A program made the translations under genes and the position numbers. The notes under the pieces were generated by a model. That model was not told the origin of the DNA. It saw only the letters and a program-made list of their open reading frames with translations, and ran no database searches. A DNA stretch of 64,000 nt from Marilutibacter spongiae (GTDB lineage Bacteria > Pseudomonadota > Gammaproteobacteria > Xanthomonadales > Xanthomonadaceae). Of the stretch, positions 55,494-63,909 are shown piece by piece. The stretch is from assembly GCF_014145325.1 (NCBI RefSeq), contig NZ_JACHTF010000002.1, forward strand, positions 275,659 to 339,658. Direction: 5' to 3'. Within the stretch, counting starts at the first letter, position 1. Each line of letters begins with the position of its first letter.

Positions 55494-56228
55494 ATGGAAA
55501 TGAGAAAAAGCTGTCTCGCAATTGCCACGATGAGCCTTCCACGGCTTGTTCCATGGGGACTCGCACATGCCTCCACACCCCCGGGTGATGTGATCGAATT
55601 GCCCAACGAAGGAATTGAGGACGGCCGGAGCTTTGAAGCACTCGATCCTGTCGCACAACAGTATCAAGTCAGCCATTCCGAAGTAGGCGCAATCATCGAC
55701 CTTGCCACCAATCGGGTCTATGTCAGCAATTCAAAGGGTGAGAACCTTTCGATTTCGATTTCAGATGCGGTACTGACCGAAGCCGGATTGACGCGCGCTG
55801 AGTTCGAGCACGTGATGACTGCCCCCGGCCACGCCTTCGAAGTACGTTACGACTCGAACGCCAACGGACAAATGGACGATTGGCAGCTAACTGGAAACGG
55901 CTGTCTTTCCGCCCACTGCTCTCCGTGGAAGTTCAACAACTTCGACGCGCTAGACGGCTATGACGGCTTGAACTTCTTTGATCGATTTTCTACGTTCGGC
56001 GGCCCGCGCACGCCTCCCAGCCCCTCGGAAAGAGCCGCTGCATGCGACCGCGTCCGGGAACTATCCGAGAAGGGAATCATCGAAGCGGGAGTGACGGGCG
56101 TCAGCTGTGCAGCCGCGGCTTCGGTAGTGGGCGGAGTAGCGTGTGCTGGAGGCCTCATCAAGATGGGGTTCACGGCGCATCGGCGGAACCAGAATCAGAA
56201 GAAGTGCAAGTGCGAGGAACCGCGATGA
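55494..56228 (+). CDS. Exported protein of unknown function with EF-hand-like loop and Gly/Ala zipper
   Basis: A 244-aa protein of the low-GC island. Signal peptide about 1-27 (LAIATMSLPRLVPWGLAHA). The mature part has DLATNRVYVSNSKGENLSIS, DSNANGQMDDWQL with a D-x-N-x-N-G-x-x-D calcium-loop pattern, Cys pairs (GNGCLSAHCSPW), FDALDGYDGLNFFDRF, and near the C-terminus the Gly/Ala-rich GVSCAAAASVVGGVACAGGL, possibly membrane-active, then a basic tail with CKC. No family is recognised. Its stop overlaps the next ATG (ATGA). The AAGGA at 55478-55482 lies 11 nt before the start. Confidence 0.6.
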   Translation: MEMRKSCLAIATMSLPRLVPWGLAHASTPPGDVIELPNEGIEDGRSFEALDPVAQQYQVSHSEVGAIIDLATNRVYVSNSKGENLSISISDAVLTEAGLTRAEFEHVMTAPGHAFEVRYDSNANGQMDDWQLTGNGCLSAHCSPWKFNNFDALDGYDGLNFFDRFSTFGGPRTPPSPSERAAACDRVRELSEKGIIEAGVTGVSCAAAASVVGGVACAGGLIKMGFTAHRRNQNQKKCKCEEPR

Positions 56229-56410
56229 CACAGAACTTCCTCGTTGGCATGGCGATTGCGGCGATATTCGGCTATGTCGTCGGCATCCTGTCGCTTCGAA
56301 GTGCCCCTACCATCGAAAAACGAAGATTCATGAGCACGTTGATAGGCACAGCAGCGCTCAGCTTCTTCATGACATCCCTCGCGTACGAGTTGGGCTGGCT
56401 AGTGCCCTAG
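56225..56410 (+). CDS. 61-aa membrane protein coupled to the upstream gene
   Basis: Two TM segments: FLVGMAIAAIFGYVVGILSL (about 5-24) and LIGTAALSFFMTSLAYELGW (about 39-58), linked by a short basic loop (RSAPTIEKRRFM). ATG 56225 overlaps the stop of the 244-aa gene by ATGA. Small two-TM proteins coupled to an exported protein are often immunity or accessory factors. No homologue is recognised. Confidence 0.65.
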   Translation: MTQNFLVGMAIAAIFGYVVGILSLRSAPTIEKRRFMSTLIGTAALSFFMTSLAYELGWLVP

Positions 56411-57121: not shown

Positions 57122-57151
57122 TTGACAGCCAAAGGTCGCACCTCCTAGAGT
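57122..57151 (+). promoter_or_regulatory. Candidate sigma70 promoter of the Fic-RHS unit
   Basis: TTGACA (57122-57127), an 18-nt spacer, then TAGAGT (57146-57151). It lies 66 nt before the Fic start chosen here. The -35 box is consensus and the -10 matches four of six bases. Confidence 0.5.
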
Positions 57152-57160
57152 CCGGCGCTC

Positions 57161-57179
57161 GGCAATCGAACTGATTGCC
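57161..57179. promoter_or_regulatory. Palindrome GGCAATC-gaact-GATTGCC before Fic
   Basis: Perfect 7-bp arms around a 5-nt spacer, starting 9 nt after the -10-like box. It would be in the leader mRNA near +1 to +20 or serve as an operator that overlaps the start site. No regulator gene is beside it. Confidence 0.5.
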
Positions 57180-57217
57180 TCTACTGCGACATGGAAAGTC
57201 TGCTAAGGGGGACAGGG

Positions 57218-58282
57218 ATGGCTCCAGTGGTCTCCGCACGAAATTGCTCTTCAAAGAGCGACGAAGCGCTCCGCATACCTATAGGGCGCTCTGACGCCAT
57301 CCCCTCTGCCGTAACCGGGCTACCGATACGCTATGCGGCCCCTGAGCCCTTGAGTGAGCTTTTGTCTCGCTGCGCGGGTCAGCGACCAACTGACGTCCCA
57401 GAGCTTGAGTCGAGCATCGCAACGTGGCTGCTTCCCTTGGCATCCTATCGCCTGTCTGCAGGCGTTATCGATGCGAAGCTGGCGACAACTCTTGGCCAGG
57501 TTGCCATTGGACAGGCGGCATATCGGTCGCCCCAGGCGGTCCTTGAGGCTGCGCGAAGCGTCCACCCCCTTGCGACGAGCTTGCGCCAGGAGAACGTGTT
57601 CACTGGCGCAGCGACTGCCAGCCAAGCACGCCATGTCTATCCACCCTACGAGGCGCTGACGGAACTCGTCGATGACCTTGGACGCGTCCTCGCGTCCCCT
57701 CCCACAGACGTCAGCCCATTTGTTGTCGCCGCAGTGACAGGGATGTACTGCAGCTGTGTTCATCCCTTCATCGATGGCAACGGCCGCTGGGCCAGATTGA
57801 TGACGGTCCAAGCCGGCGCGGCCGCTGGCAGCCCCGGGGAGGGGGTCGCCGCGGCAGTGTTCCTGGCAACCTTCAGCGCCGAACTGGCAGGTCAGGTATG
57901 GCCGGACGCGTTCATGGCGGGGCTCGATCCATACTTGCGCCTGGCCGGTGCATTTCGAACGTCCTTGTCCTCGGTACTGGAATGCGACCGTAGCAAGCAT
58001 GTCTTCTCGCACGTGGCGCGAGCCATCCGCGGTGCGTCCCGATCCCCGAGAGATGGGGACCGCGCACTGCTGTGCGTACTGACGCAGAACTGCATTGAAG
58101 TCGCAACGTTGAGAAATGCCCTGGGTGTCTCGGAGCGGAGAGCCAATGCGCTGGCTGACGAGATCCGTAGCGAATTTGTCGGCACTCCCTTCTCGATTGC
58201 AAACGATGGCCCGGCAGTCATGTCCGGGCTTTGGAACGTTGCGGTTCAAGCTAAAGATCAAACCATAGGAAGGCTTACATGA
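57218..58282 (+). CDS. Fic-domain protein (AMPylase-type), intact motif
   Basis: A 354-aa protein. The Fic core motif [12 protein letters not shown] (residues 182-193, catalytic His182) matches HPFxxGNGRxxR in full, preceded by TGMYCSC in the usual helix. The upstream flap region [17 protein letters not shown] matches the Fic-protein layout. The C-terminus (about 260-350) is helical, with a winged-helix-like block ([26 protein letters not shown]). I see no (S/T)xxxE(G/N) inhibitory motif. There is no signal peptide. ATG 57218 follows AAGGGGGACAGGG; the ATG at 57191 has no good ribosome site. Known Fic enzymes transfer AMP or other nucleotide groups. The stop overlaps the RHS start. Confidence 0.88.
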
Positions 58283-61200
58283 TGGAAGGAAGGTCCTTGG
58301 GAGTCGAGCTGAGTGCGCGTGGCAATTCAGATCTTGGCAAGGCGTTACGCTGCCTGCTCATCGCTGCGGTTGGCTCAGTCGCCGCGGTCGGTCAATCACA
58401 TGCGCAACAGGTACCCGACAGCGTGCCTACGCTTGATCGCGTGACGGCGTATGGATTCCGGATATCGCGCCTTCCCATGGCGCCGCCGATGGTCTCTTTG
58501 AACACCGGGCCGCTGGCATCGATGAATCCGAACAGCATCTCCTTCTTCCTTGATGGAGTCCCTCAGGCTGGTGATTTCGGCTATGACACCGAACGGCCGG
58601 ACCCTTCAGACCCAAGCCCCGGGACAGCAATCAATCCGCAACCCGACACCCAGTGTGGCGCTGTCGACAACAAGGCGCCACCTGCGATACAGAACAACCC
58701 TGTAAACGTAGTAGATGGCTACAAGCATGCATCTGCCGTCGACTTCCAGTCGGTTTCAAATCCCGATCTCAGATTCGAACGATACAAGAACCCGCGGTGG
58801 AAAGGGATAGGCGTTCTGGGCCAGTCGTGGGTGACGAACCTCGATCTGAAAATTGCGTTTTCCAAGACAGGCGTGATGTGCTACCCGACCCCGGGGAAAC
58901 CATCCTGTAACGTAAGCAGTCCGACAACGCTGCATTTTTATACCGATCAGGGTGGCGTCATCCAGATGACCAAATCCGGTGGCAACTGGCACGGTACTGG
59001 AACAGCCTCGATGTACTGGGTATCCGTCATCGACGATGGAACTGCTGACAGCGGCAAATATCTTCTCCACACGCGCGGCGGATCAGCCTTTGGGCCAAGG
59101 ATGGTATTCCGGCGCAACGGGTTTATAGACTATATTGACCAGCGCGACGGCAACCGCCTCACATACACTTACGACACCAGTAATCGCCTCACCAAGGTAA
59201 CGCATACCTCAGGCCGGGCGATCACGTTGTCGTGGACCAGCGCCACGCCAGGGGCCGTGACCAGCATACAAGCGCCAAATGGCGGAGTGTATAGGTTCGG
59301 ATACTACACGGCGGGCACCGCATACGCCTCGAACGTCGAGGCACCCATACTGCGCACGGTAAGCTACCCCGATGGAAAGGGTAACCTGGAATATATTCAC
59401 GAAACGGGGACTTCCAACTCAACGGGCACGCCTCGCCCCTACACAAACGTCCATCGAATGTTGCAGATCAAGGTCAATGGCGTCCCGATCTCGACCTATA
59501 CCTACAAGCTGGCGGGCCAGAACACGTCTGCTGTAGCGACTACGCAGCTAGCCAACGGCGCCAATCGCTATGTTTACAACTACGACTTCAACGGTGGCAG
59601 CCGTGAAGTCATCAATCCTTACCAGAAAAAGACCACATACCATGTAGAAGACGGGCAGATCGTTGAGACTGTAGGTGCCGCCACGACCAACTGCCCTTCT
59701 ACCTTCAAGCTTGCGTCCTACCTTGAGAACGGTCTGTTGGAGTACGCATCCGATGAACGAGACATCGTGACCCGATACGAGTACGACAGCTTCGGTCGTC
59801 GCACAAAAGCGATTGAGGCAGCTGGAAGGCCCGAGCAGCGTGTCACGACGTGGGAGTATGACGCGGACCCAACGAACGTCTTGCGTACCGAACTCATCAA
59901 GTCGATCACCGTAAGTGGACTGCGCCGTACGACGTATACCTACACGCCAAGTGCGTCCACGTTCCCGAACGGCAACAGCCTCACTGCCAGCGTGACGTCC
60001 CGTAACCTGACGAACACGGGTGTAGCGAACCAGGATAGGAAAACCAGCTATTCCTACACGTTTCATTCAAACGGAATGATCGCGACATCGACTGAGGATG
60101 GCCCGCTAGGCGGCACCGGAGATCGCAAGGTCATGTCTTACAACCCCCTGGGCGATCTGGTATCCATCCAGAATGGCTTGGGGCACAAACGGACCTTCAG
60201 CGGCCACAATGCATTTGGTCAACCGACGAAGGTGACCAATGAGAACGGGGACATTATCGAGTACACCTACGATCTTCGGGGCAGGATCGTGAAAGAGGCT
60301 CGATTCTATAACGGGGCGCGCACTGAAACAGATTACCTGTATGACCTCAACGGCCGGCTGGACAGTATCAACAAGCCGTACGGCGCATCGCGGATCTTCC
60401 GCTACGACGTCGTGGGACGCCTCATTGGACAGTACGAGGTCCAGCCGAACGGGAAGTACGCATTCGAGTCCTATGACTACAACGCCGCCTCCGATATCGT
60501 CGCAACGTATCGCGGCGAAATTGCCAGCATCCCTGGCCCGGTCAACCCCATGCCTGCTTCGATACCTGGTGAAGACATTGGCGCCATCATTGCGCCCGGT
60601 ATCGAGGTTTCCGCGGTGCCGACAGGGGCGACGGTCAGCTACCGGTCCATTGTGGAGTACGATGAGCTGGGACGCCCCCTCCGTATTAGAGGCGCAAACG
60701 GCCAATCGATACGTCGTACCTATGATGAGTCGGGCAACCTTGCCACCCAGACGGATGCCCAGAACAACTCCAAGACATTCGAGTACGATGGCCTTGATCG
60801 ATTGATCACCTCTACCGACCCTCGCGGAAAGTCCACTCGTTACACCTACAATGCAGCAGATCAGGTAGTACGCGTCACAGACCCTCGCGGGCTAGTCACC
60901 AACTACAGCTACGATGGGTTTGGGGCACTTTGGAAACTGACCAGCCCGGACACGGGCGTGACGAATTACACCCTGGATGCAGCAGGTCGCGTCACGAAGA
61001 TGGTCCGCGCCAACGGCAAACAAGTCATTTATACCCACGATTCACTGGGGCGAATCTTGACCGCGGTAGCGGGAGGGCAGACGCAGGAGTTCGCTTACGA
61101 TGTGTGTTCGAACGGCAAGGGTCGAATCTGTAGAATTACGGATCGCACCGGGGAACTCACATATACATACAATCCTCAGGGATCACGGCTCACGCAGGGG

Positions 61201-62883
61201 CAAAGGATTGGGACCAGTTCGATCAACTTCGACCAGGCATACGCCTACGATAATCTGGGAAGATTGACAGGCATCAGCTACCCGGGCGGAGTCAGTCTAG
61301 GCTATGGATACTCGCTCGACAGCTTGGTCGCGGTGACTGCGAACATTGGCGGAGTCGCCAAGAACGTCGCAACCGGCATACAGCACTTGCCGTGGGGAGC
61401 AATAGCTGGATGGACGTATGGGAACGGCATCACGCGATCTCATCAGTACGACCAGGGATATGCCATCGGGGATCAGCGACTCACCAGCATCTATTCCAGG
61501 AATGGCAGCAGCTTTATTCAGAGCCGGACGCTTGAATACGACACTCGGGATCTGATCACACAGATCGAGAATGGCGTGTCCGGCAGCGCGACGTTTTATG
61601 AGTACGATGAGCTTGGGCGCTTGATCAAGGACGGCTCCGCGGCAGACCCCACGCGCCGTTATACACAGTATGAGTACGACGACAACGGAAACAGGGTCAC
61701 CAAATACAGTCGAGCGCCCGGCGTCATGGTGCCGCCTATCCCCACTGTGATTGAGGCGGCGAGCAACCGTATTGACAACGTGAAGGGTGCACCCTTCACC
61801 TACGACAACGCAGGGAACACCCTGACCAGCAACTCCAATGGAGGCATGACCCTCGAATACGATGCCTTCAACAGGCTCGGCAAGGTTACGACGGAAGGAG
61901 TGTCCACGAGCTACTTCGTGAATGCGCTGGGTCAGCGGAACCGGAAAACGCAGGGAAGCGCCGCAACACAGTGGGTGTTCCTGTACGGCCTAGGAGGGCA
62001 GCTTGACGTTGACTATCACTGGGGCCCCAGGACGTGGACACATTACCTGCGATTGCCGAACGGCTCGCCGATCGGCGTTGTCCGCGGAGGGCAGCTCTAC
62101 ATGGCGCATACCGATCACCTGGGACGTCCCGAGGTCCTGACCAATAGCGCGAAAGCGGTAGTGTGGCGTTCGGGAGGCGGGACCTTCGACACAAACGTTT
62201 CGTTGGACCAGGTTGGGGGTCTGAACCTGGGGTTCCCGGGACAGTATCGCGACACCGAGTCAGGGCTGTGGTACAACAATTTTCGGACGTATGACCCGGC
62301 CCTTGGGCGATATGTTGAGAGTGATCCGATTGGCTTGGCTGGAGGTATTAATACCTATATCTACTCAGCCGCCAATCCCCTAAGCTTTATCGACCCAAGC
62401 GGCCTGGAGATTGCATACGCAAACCACGAGGTTGCTCTCGGCATCTATCATTCAAAGCTAGTGATAACTCCAATTGACCAAGCATACTGGGCAAATCATC
62501 CCGATTTCAAAAATAACATTGACTCCAATGGCAGGCATTTCGCCACTATAGGTGGCGGGCCTGATGTTTCTAGCGATGTACTTTCCGGCGGCATCAATCG
62601 AATCAATGATGTCACCAAACCAAATAGCAACATTACCCCTTTAACTTTGCCATGCATCTACAAAAATGAAAATTCTGCGATCGAGAAGCTTATGGGCATG
62701 GTTGGGAACTACAACAATCGAACCGTTCCTTATACGTTGATTCCTGTGGGGAACTGGCAGTTTAATTCCAACAGCTTTGTGAGTGGCATCGGCATGGCTG
62801 CAGGTTTTACTATGCCCGCGCATACTGGAGCACCAACCCCTGGATATGGAAATCCATTGCCGAGCTATCTATTTGACCGATGA
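58279..62883 (+). CDS. Sec-exported RHS/YD-repeat protein with variable C-terminal tip
   Basis: A 1534-aa protein. N-terminal signal (about 22-42, [21 protein letters not shown]), a short Pro-rich linker, then an RHS-type entry domain ([30 protein letters not shown]). From about residue 285 on come many YD repeats ([45 protein letters not shown] and others). The core ends in the classical [19 protein letters not shown], then [13 protein letters not shown]. The last 158 residues are the variable tip. ATG 58279 overlaps the Fic stop (ATGA). The YD cage probably wraps a toxin, but no TSS6/VgrG partner, PAAR or self-cleavage site is obvious here; export is by Sec at least to the periplasm. Confidence 0.9.
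62407..62883 (+). other. Variable tip of the RHS protein (residues 1377-1534)
   Basis: The base composition drops sharply after DPSGL, as is usual for exchanged RHS tips. Visible pieces are [67 protein letters not shown] and the closing [12 protein letters not shown]. The His near the start and the NSNSF-V-S-G block recall a recurring tip seen in other RHS proteins, possibly a papain/NlpC-like fold (inference from memory, not a search). No Cys aligned as a nucleophile is apparent. Confidence 0.5.
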
Positions 62884-63245
62884 ATACAACAATCCGAGCT
62901 TCAATATCTCTTGTTTTATTGACCGCCTTGGGCTGCTCTCAACAGAGTCGGAGCGAGAGTCAAGCCATTAAAGAGGTCGAACGTTTCCTTGTCGCCGGCA
63001 TGAGTGTCGACCAGGCGAAAATGGAGGTGAGCAGACGAAAGTTTCGAGATGTTCGCGTGAATGATGATCAAGGGGTTTGGATCCGGAGTCAGAATGAAGT
63101 CATAGGGGAGCGCTCGATTCAGTTTACCTATGATGATTATTGGGAGGGTTTTTTGCGGCGCGCGAACATTACGGTTAGCGTTGCTTTTGATGAGGAAGGC
63201 AGACTTTTGATGGTGAGCGCTAGGAAGACCGTGGATGCTCCCTAG
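62880..63245 (+). CDS. Putative immunity lipoprotein for the RHS tip
   Basis: A 121-aa lipoprotein with lipobox LTALGC (Cys19). The mature part (about 20-121) is polar and beta-rich: [59 protein letters not shown]. Start ATG 62880 overlaps the RHS stop. Position immediately after the toxin tip, coupled translation, and a periplasm-facing lipoprotein all fit an immunity protein for a periplasmically acting toxin. No family is recognised. AT-rich like the tip. Confidence 0.65.
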
Positions 63246-63890
63246 GGATGCTCTGAACAATTCCCTCGGCGACAATAGCGCAAGGTTCGACGGATGACGA
63301 CGATGCAGCTGAGCTTCGGGGACGCGCAACACGATCATCGCGGCGCCAAGTTCGACGAAGAACAAGGACGGCGAGCGCGACCCGGAGATGCACCAAAAGA
63401 AGAAGGTCAACCAGTGGCGCTTCGGGATGAAGGCGCACATTGGCGTGGATGAAGAGTCAGGCCTGGTGCACCACGTGGAGTGCACGGCAGCCAACGTGGG
63501 CGACGTGACCCAGGTGCACACGCTGCTGCATGGAAAGGAAGACACGGTGTGCGGGGTCAGCGGCTACACCGGTGCGGACAAACGCGAGGAACTGCAGGGC
63601 GTTGACGTCGCGTTCTGGATCGCGGAGAAGCCGTCGAAGCTGCGCGCGATCAAGAACAAGCGCGAACGCAAGGACGCCGAACGCTGGGAGCACTTCAAGG
63701 CCAGCGTGCGGGCGAAGGTGGAGCATCCGTTCCGGGTGATGAAGCGGCAGTTCGGCTACGCCAAGGTGCGCTACCGCGGCCTGGCGAAGAACACGGCGCA
63801 GGTGCTGACGCTGTTCGCAATGTCGAATCTGTGGATGGCGCGGCGACGCTTGCTGCAGCCGGCGGGGTACCTCCGACGTCCCCCCGCCTT
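63245..63890 (+). mobile_element. IS5-family insertion sequence, internally deleted, right end missing
   Basis: The left end begins about GGGATGCTCTGAACAA (63245-63260) and matches an IS5-type terminal inverted repeat by eye. After the transposase start MTTMQLSFGDA the sequence jumps to the catalytic C-terminal third. No matching inverted repeat (TTGTTCAGAGC) occurs before the window end, so the right side is truncated, apparently by the adjoining IS3 element. Confidence 0.7.
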
Positions 63891-63909
63891 CAGTAGCAAG
63901 GCGGTTTAG
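63294..63909 (+). pseudogene. IS5-family transposase remnant with internal deletion
   Basis: An N-terminal fragment (63294 to about 63324, MTTMQLSFGDA) joins out of frame to the C-terminal part, which in its own frame reads TIIAAPSSTKNKDGERD, then PEMHQKKKVNQWRFGMKAHI, LVHHVECTAANVGDV, VSGYTGADKREEL, WEHFKASVRAKVEHPFRVMK and GLAKNTAQVLTLFAMSNLW. The central part of the DDE domain is lost (roughly 600 nt, estimated from the usual size). After LLQPAG the frame continues through non-IS5 DNA to a chance stop at 63909. Confidence 0.8.

Follow-up and report, generated by a model that had tools for sequence, protein, structure and literature searches.

The window analyzed here is a 64,000-nucleotide stretch of Marilutibacter spongiae DNA (contig NZ_JACHTF010000002.1, positions 275,659 to 339,658). 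On its forward strand, a gene for a Fic-domain protein (57191..58282) is followed by one for an RHS/YD-repeat protein that is predicted to be Sec-exported (58279..62883, 1534 residues) and by one for a 121-residue predicted lipoprotein, a candidate immunity protein (62880..63245). Fic genes of this type recur in front of RHS genes in other genomes, and a 17-residue leader at the start of the RHS protein recurs with them. Because the presence of Fic tracks this leader while the C-terminal tip of the RHS protein changes, we favor a role for Fic that connects it to the RHS protein itself. The reading that we prefer, and to which we give about an even chance, is a polymorphic-toxin-like unit with a constant 5' part (Fic gene plus leader), in which Fic would bind the leader and either modify the RHS chain or clear it for export, after which the leader is probably cleaved.

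The first-pass annotation of this region had described three genes joined by ATGA overlaps, and the coordinates of the open reading frames (ORFs) bear this out at each junction: the Fic stop and RHS start share 58279..58282, and the RHS stop and lipoprotein start share 62880..62883 (4 bases each). The three genes are probably co-transcribed. Its description of a separate RHS protein, predicted to be Sec-exported, with a predicted lipoprotein beside the tip also holds. The RHS protein matches RHS_repeat (E 8.9e-57), RHS and DUF6531 in Pfam (DUF6531 at residues 140–197, 58696..58869) and Rhs_assc_core, the RHS repeat-associated core domain (residues 1316–1376, 62224..62406); its signal peptide and the lipobox of the lipoprotein (TALGC) were judged by eye. 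A PAAR domain, which would place the protein with the type VI Rhs effectors, gave no Pfam match at E 0.1. The protein has a leader and a signal-peptide-like stretch instead.

When 395 genomes of the family (window included) were searched with the Fic profile, 11 loci matched from end to end at 229.7 bits or more. A twelfth (G412) matched profile positions 1–233 before its contig ended; G133, a broken copy close to the end of its contig, stands outside the counts of 11 and 12. The remaining matches among those listed scored at most 90.5 bits and lacked the N-terminal part. A same-strand RHS gene followed Fic in 7 of the 11 end-to-end loci (G000, which is the window's own genome, G142, G187, G280, G159, G158 and G143). 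These represent six genera, across which pairwise Fic identity is 17–34%. The first-pass annotation had staked the link between Fic and RHS on such co-occurrence elsewhere, and it is found, in 7 of the 395 genomes when the window's own is included.

The two genes are close-set in six of the seven loci, where the RHS start lies between 11 bases inside and 19 bases after the Fic gene: 4 inside in the window and in G158, 11 inside in G159, 8 inside in G187 (10 after if a later start is used), 6 after in G142 and 19 after in G280. G142 repeats the order of the window, with Fic, RHS and a lipoprotein-like ORF, and its RHS stop likewise lies in an ATGA. The fetched loci contain 111 distinct Fic ORFs, of which these 7 precede RHS; of the 104 others, 6 are cut short and none of the 98 with at least 1000 nucleotides readable downstream has RHS behind it. 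The reverse search, with the N-terminal 474 residues of the RHS protein as query, gave matches in 105 of 297 family genomes, and 40 of the listed RHS places were fetched, two of them Fic-linked. Fic lies directly upstream of RHS in G142 and G187, the second and third best RHS matches after the window; the best (G044, locus L064) has no Fic upstream.

Other searches added little. A single-sequence Fic search of genome contigs and a search of viral contigs and plasmids found no relative, and a scan with the Fic alignment found three short Fics, none with RHS beside it. The window Fic alone gave only core matches in 100 genomes, besides itself, and a class-wide search of 369 genomes returned no end-to-end Fic match other than the window among the matches listed. 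In the protein searches, about 8000 candidates with the most words in common were scored; the relatives P0002 and P0003 lack gene context.

In the other four end-to-end loci (G350, G282, G424 and G358, all genus g18), the next gene overlaps Fic by 14 bases and encodes a protein of about 300 residues that is predicted to be secreted; a lipoprotein-like ORF comes after it. In the genus-g18 loci (L164–L167) the related Fic has the motif HPLSDTNGR, the short overlapping secreted partner is proline-rich, and RHS is absent.

The leader of the window's RHS protein comprises residues 7–23 (58297..58347) and precedes the hydrophobic core of the signal peptide and the presumed cleavage region (residues 25–42, 58351..58404, with cleavage between SHA and Q, by eye). 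The pattern [LI]Gx[ET]L-x7-LxxA[IL] occurs before the hydrophobic core in all seven Fic-linked RHS proteins, and the spacing from [LI]Gx[ET]L to LxxA[IL] is exactly 12 in every one. Mean identity is 43% over the 17-residue leader, compared with 7% over the linker that follows the signal peptide and 10% when the leaders are shuffled. As controls we took 40 Fic-less RHS reading frames, consisting of ORFs from the fetched RHS places other than the Fic-linked ones, plus L168; [LI]Gx[ET]L was found near the start of none of them (0/40 versus 7/7, Fisher 1.6e-8). Among 175 secreted-like ORFs of the window and the large loci, the same element appears in five, all Fic-linked, the scan having passed over the Fic-linked L154 and L160 owing to its start-codon rule. 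A profile of the seven leaders was run against six genomes. The five built-in members scored E 1.4e-14 or better, as is inevitable for sequences used to build the profile; what informs is that no others joined them, everything else being at E 0.0146 or worse. The best match in the Fic-less G044 was at E 0.485.

Some RHS genes are divided. The protein is split into two chains in L064, L066, L154 and L155. At least in L064, L066 and L155, a separate signal peptide is predicted for the second chain, and in L064 and L154 the two frames share an ATGA.

We placed Fic and leader on a tree of the RHS proteins (42 rows; L091 and L168 gave no match and were omitted, and L160 was added manually). The Fic label requires five changes, of which at least three are forced by well-supported branches, and the Fic-linked RHS proteins form one group in 0 of 200 bootstrap trees. 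L064 (G044) and L083 lack both Fic and leader, and each is sister to a Fic-linked RHS protein, L064 to L066 (91/88) and L083 to L156 (97/93). Such a pattern is consistent with Fic and leader forming a 5' cassette that was gained or lost in one piece. Identity between Fics rises with identity between RHS N-termini (r 0.69, a value reached in 69 of 5040 permutations), a modest correlation that shared descent could produce.

The leader could instead be an extended signal-peptide export address unrelated to Fic, the two traveling as neighbors in a 5' cassette while Fic acts elsewhere in the cytoplasm. We regard this as a possible, though doubtful, explanation. The scatter of Fic-bearing RHS shells over the tree suits it, as does the joint gain and loss of the two elements, since physical linkage would let one recombination event move or lose both and so create a correlation between Fic and leader without any contact. 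What argues against an export address is that the leader does not look like a signal that these bacteria use for export in general, as it was seen on none of the 40 Fic-less RHS frames and had no strong second match in the six genomes, and that the catalytic residues of Fic are intact in all seven loci. An ESPR-type extended signal peptide, for which Pfam presumably includes a model, gave no Pfam match in the window's RHS protein at E 0.1. In none of the leader columns do all seven members have Ser, Thr or Tyr. This agrees with an export address; under the preferred reading, it favors a docking role for the leader over a role as the modified site. A conserved Ser or Thr of the leader had been considered as that site and was rejected on this ground.

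The possibility of linkage without contact and the missing Ser/Thr/Tyr column both weigh against Fic recognizing the leader to act on the RHS chain, and so do the following points. The leader motif was defined after the seven members had been inspected. The 40 control frames are a sample of RHS genes, and at least five of them (L064_6368, L090_8570, L087, L089 and L075) are C-terminal halves or cut rows rather than true N-termini. On the tree, the Fic label shows weak clustering (34 of 500 shuffles gave a value as low), and the branch that groups L064 with L066 has moderate support (91/88). G143 (L160) sits apart, with an RHS start, counted from the best start, 236 bases after the Fic stop. 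Its Fic (L160:2966-4009) is the most divergent Fic-linked member, with HPYSDGNGR, and its leader is the variant LGNTL. In the four genus-g18 loci, the secreted proteins behind Fic have only the LxxA[IL]-like part of the leader in common with the RHS proteins. Two remote Fics, G611 and G627, carry part of the N-terminal motif and have no RHS behind them; a transposase-like ORF stands behind the one in G627. Finally, the group that would be transferred is uncertain, because the best structural neighbor of the window Fic was solved with cytidine diphosphate (CDP).

That neighbor is a Fic-domain protein of Mycobacterium marinum (PDB 7cb8), to which the window Fic is 16% identical; a literature search found no paper on the structure. 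Membership of the Fic/Doc family is clear. The window Fic matches Pfam Fic (PF02661) above the curated cut-off (E 1e-7) and has the motif HPFx[D/E]GNGRxxR (residues 191–202, 57761..57796), in which H, P, N, G, R and R are invariant across 12 aligned Fics that are 17–39% identical to it. The full-length Fic with intact motif of the first-pass annotation was thus correctly recognized, and the protein would be expected to transfer a nucleotide. The ORF opens at 57191 (363 residues). We consider Met10, at 57218, the likely true start because a purine-rich stretch precedes it, by eye, and none precedes 57191; the catalytic histidine is H191 from the first start and H182 from the second. The database gene call (P0001, 233 residues) begins about 130 residues late and so drops the N-terminal part. 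No signal peptide is evident.

The window Fic scores 19.9 bits against the SoFic equivalog model NF046030, whose cut-off is 550, and it differs from the SoFic-like adenylyltransferases (PDB 3eqx, 3zcn and 3zec) also in having a conserved N-terminal stretch of its own and a predicted secreted protein as neighbor. PADLOC gave matches to the Fic core alone (best E 3.9e-11). Autoinhibited Fic proteins of classes II and III carry an inhibitory helix with a conserved [S/T]xxxE[G/N] motif. S130, E134 and N135 of the window Fic fit this motif by their letters. They are not conserved in relatives and lie in a loop of the structure model, and an inhibitory helix at SxxxEN (130–135), though considered, seems doubtful.

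The lack of a conserved autoinhibitory motif evident by sequence would suit another explanation, in which Fic is a second toxin, or an addiction enzyme of the toxin-antitoxin kind, carried along by the RHS unit and silent until induced. Stand-alone Fic enzymes are often toxins. A class I toxin-antitoxin pair would have a small antitoxin gene next to Fic, and none is evident here; a divergent DUF6164 gene lies upstream and RHS downstream. A stable place before RHS in seven genomes would also be unexpected of a free toxin, and we consider this explanation unlikely.

The C-terminal tips argue in the same direction as the leader, since they differ among the six loci with a readable RHS end. In the window, a 163-residue tip (residues 1372–1534, 62392..62883) that had no Pfam or PHROG match, and a best PDB-sequence match of E 0.81, is followed by the predicted lipoprotein. 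A single-sequence structure model of this tip was unusable (mean predicted local distance difference test, pLDDT, 31.7). The lipoprotein ORF had no relative besides itself. G142 has another tip and another lipoprotein-like ORF. In G187 (L066), a weak Ntox37 match (E 6e-4) precedes a weak Imm32 match (E 8e-4), both below the curated cut-offs. G280 has a tip with NNC, and the ORF that overlaps it downstream contains a single hydrophobic segment. In G158 the tip is glycine-rich and a membrane-type ORF comes next, and G159 has another tip, behind which no clear immunity-like gene was seen. The tip of L065 had no match in the family scan. The architecture is that of a polymorphic toxin, with an export domain (signal peptide by eye), repeats, an exchangeable tip and a 3' immunity-like gene; the tip is presumably toxic and the lipoprotein may confer immunity to it.

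The first-pass annotation had offered three roles for Fic, namely protection of a resident target, priming of the RHS protein and a second toxin. The data lean toward the second. The first would have Fic modify a resident target and so protect the producer from the RHS tip, as an enzymatic layer of immunity, in keeping with a Fic that lacks an evident signal peptide and belongs to the gene unit. It fits badly with the changing tips: Fic is conserved across loci whose tips differ, and one target could hardly serve them all. We hold this role to be improbable.

The preferred reading can be put as a sequence of steps. Fic would be made just before the RHS chain and would bind the 17-residue leader as that chain emerges. 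It would then modify either the conserved shell of the RHS protein or an export factor, and the toxin would thereby stay harmless or become export-competent. At the membrane, the RHS protein would enter the Sec pathway, the leader would be removed at an AxA-like site and the lipoprotein would shield the producer's envelope from the tip. More tentatively, we suggest a specific form of this scheme, a leader-addressed system that erases itself: a private Fic would read the 17-residue address of one Sec-exported toxin and nucleotidylate that toxin in the cytoplasm, and the address would be cut off on export. Fic plus leader would move between RHS shells as a 5' cassette, much as tip plus immunity gene does at the 3' end. 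The known roles of Fic enzymes are those of toxins, of effectors injected into other cells and of stress regulators. If a Fic does serve a single exported client that carries a candidate sequence for its recognition, this would supply a testable substrate rule for these enzymes, and Sec-exported polymorphic toxins would gain a step of control in the cytoplasm.

Comparison with known systems separates the two halves of the unit. The tip-immunity half is of a known kind, resembling the RHS toxins of the Sec/type II secretion system (T2SS) type in a 2012 survey of polymorphic toxins (PMC3482391) in its signal peptide, RHS repeats, exchangeable C-terminal tip and 3' immunity-like gene. The parts of that survey available to us pair Ntox37 with Imm32 in a table, which fits the weak matches in G187, list no signature neighbor gene for Sec-type toxins in that table, and name Fic once, as the toxin tip Tox-Doc (PMC3482391). 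The constant 5' module of Fic gene and matched leader is what differs in the window-type loci. As first supposed, the arrangement appears to be undescribed, in that searches of the open-access literature yielded no description of a Fic-RHS arrangement or of a Fic-leader module. The Fic toxin-antitoxin pairs FicTA and VbhTA have the Fic core in common with the window Fic, which has no evident antitoxin-like neighbor and a predicted secreted RHS protein instead. The ESPR of large exported proteins is likewise a conserved extra stretch before the hydrophobic core; the leader appears unlike it in sequence and is tied to a Fic gene.

The unit had been called AT-rich relative to its surroundings and was said to have one common candidate promoter. 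The first point is borne out by G+C fractions of 0.614 for Fic, 0.568 for RHS before the tip, 0.465 for the tip and 0.492 for the lipoprotein ORF, against 0.689 for the window. As to the second, the sigma-70-like candidate TTGACA-18-TAGAGT (57122..57151, forward strand) is the sole promoter-like site on the forward strand of the region; the count over both strands (4) does not exceed that in shuffles (3.4 ± 2.1), and the scan is weak evidence for one promoter serving three genes. The composition, together with a DDE transposase piece directly 3' of the unit (63388-63909, forward strand), would suit an explanation in which the genes have no functional link and are co-mobilized accessory DNA. 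Recurrence in six genera at such low Fic identity speaks against this, as do the overlaps, the invariant catalytic residues and the association with the leader, and we think it very improbable.

Elsewhere in the family, L156 and L161 hold different Fic cassettes between TonB-receptor-like and nucleosidase-like genes (names by eye) in two genomes, which suggests that this site is an insertion hotspot. Upstream of the Fic gene, the window has a second AT-rich pair (55494-56410, forward strand), in which a predicted secreted Cys-containing protein (55494-56228) is overlapped at ATGA by a membrane-type ORF of 61 residues (56225-56410); this may be another effector/immunity pair.

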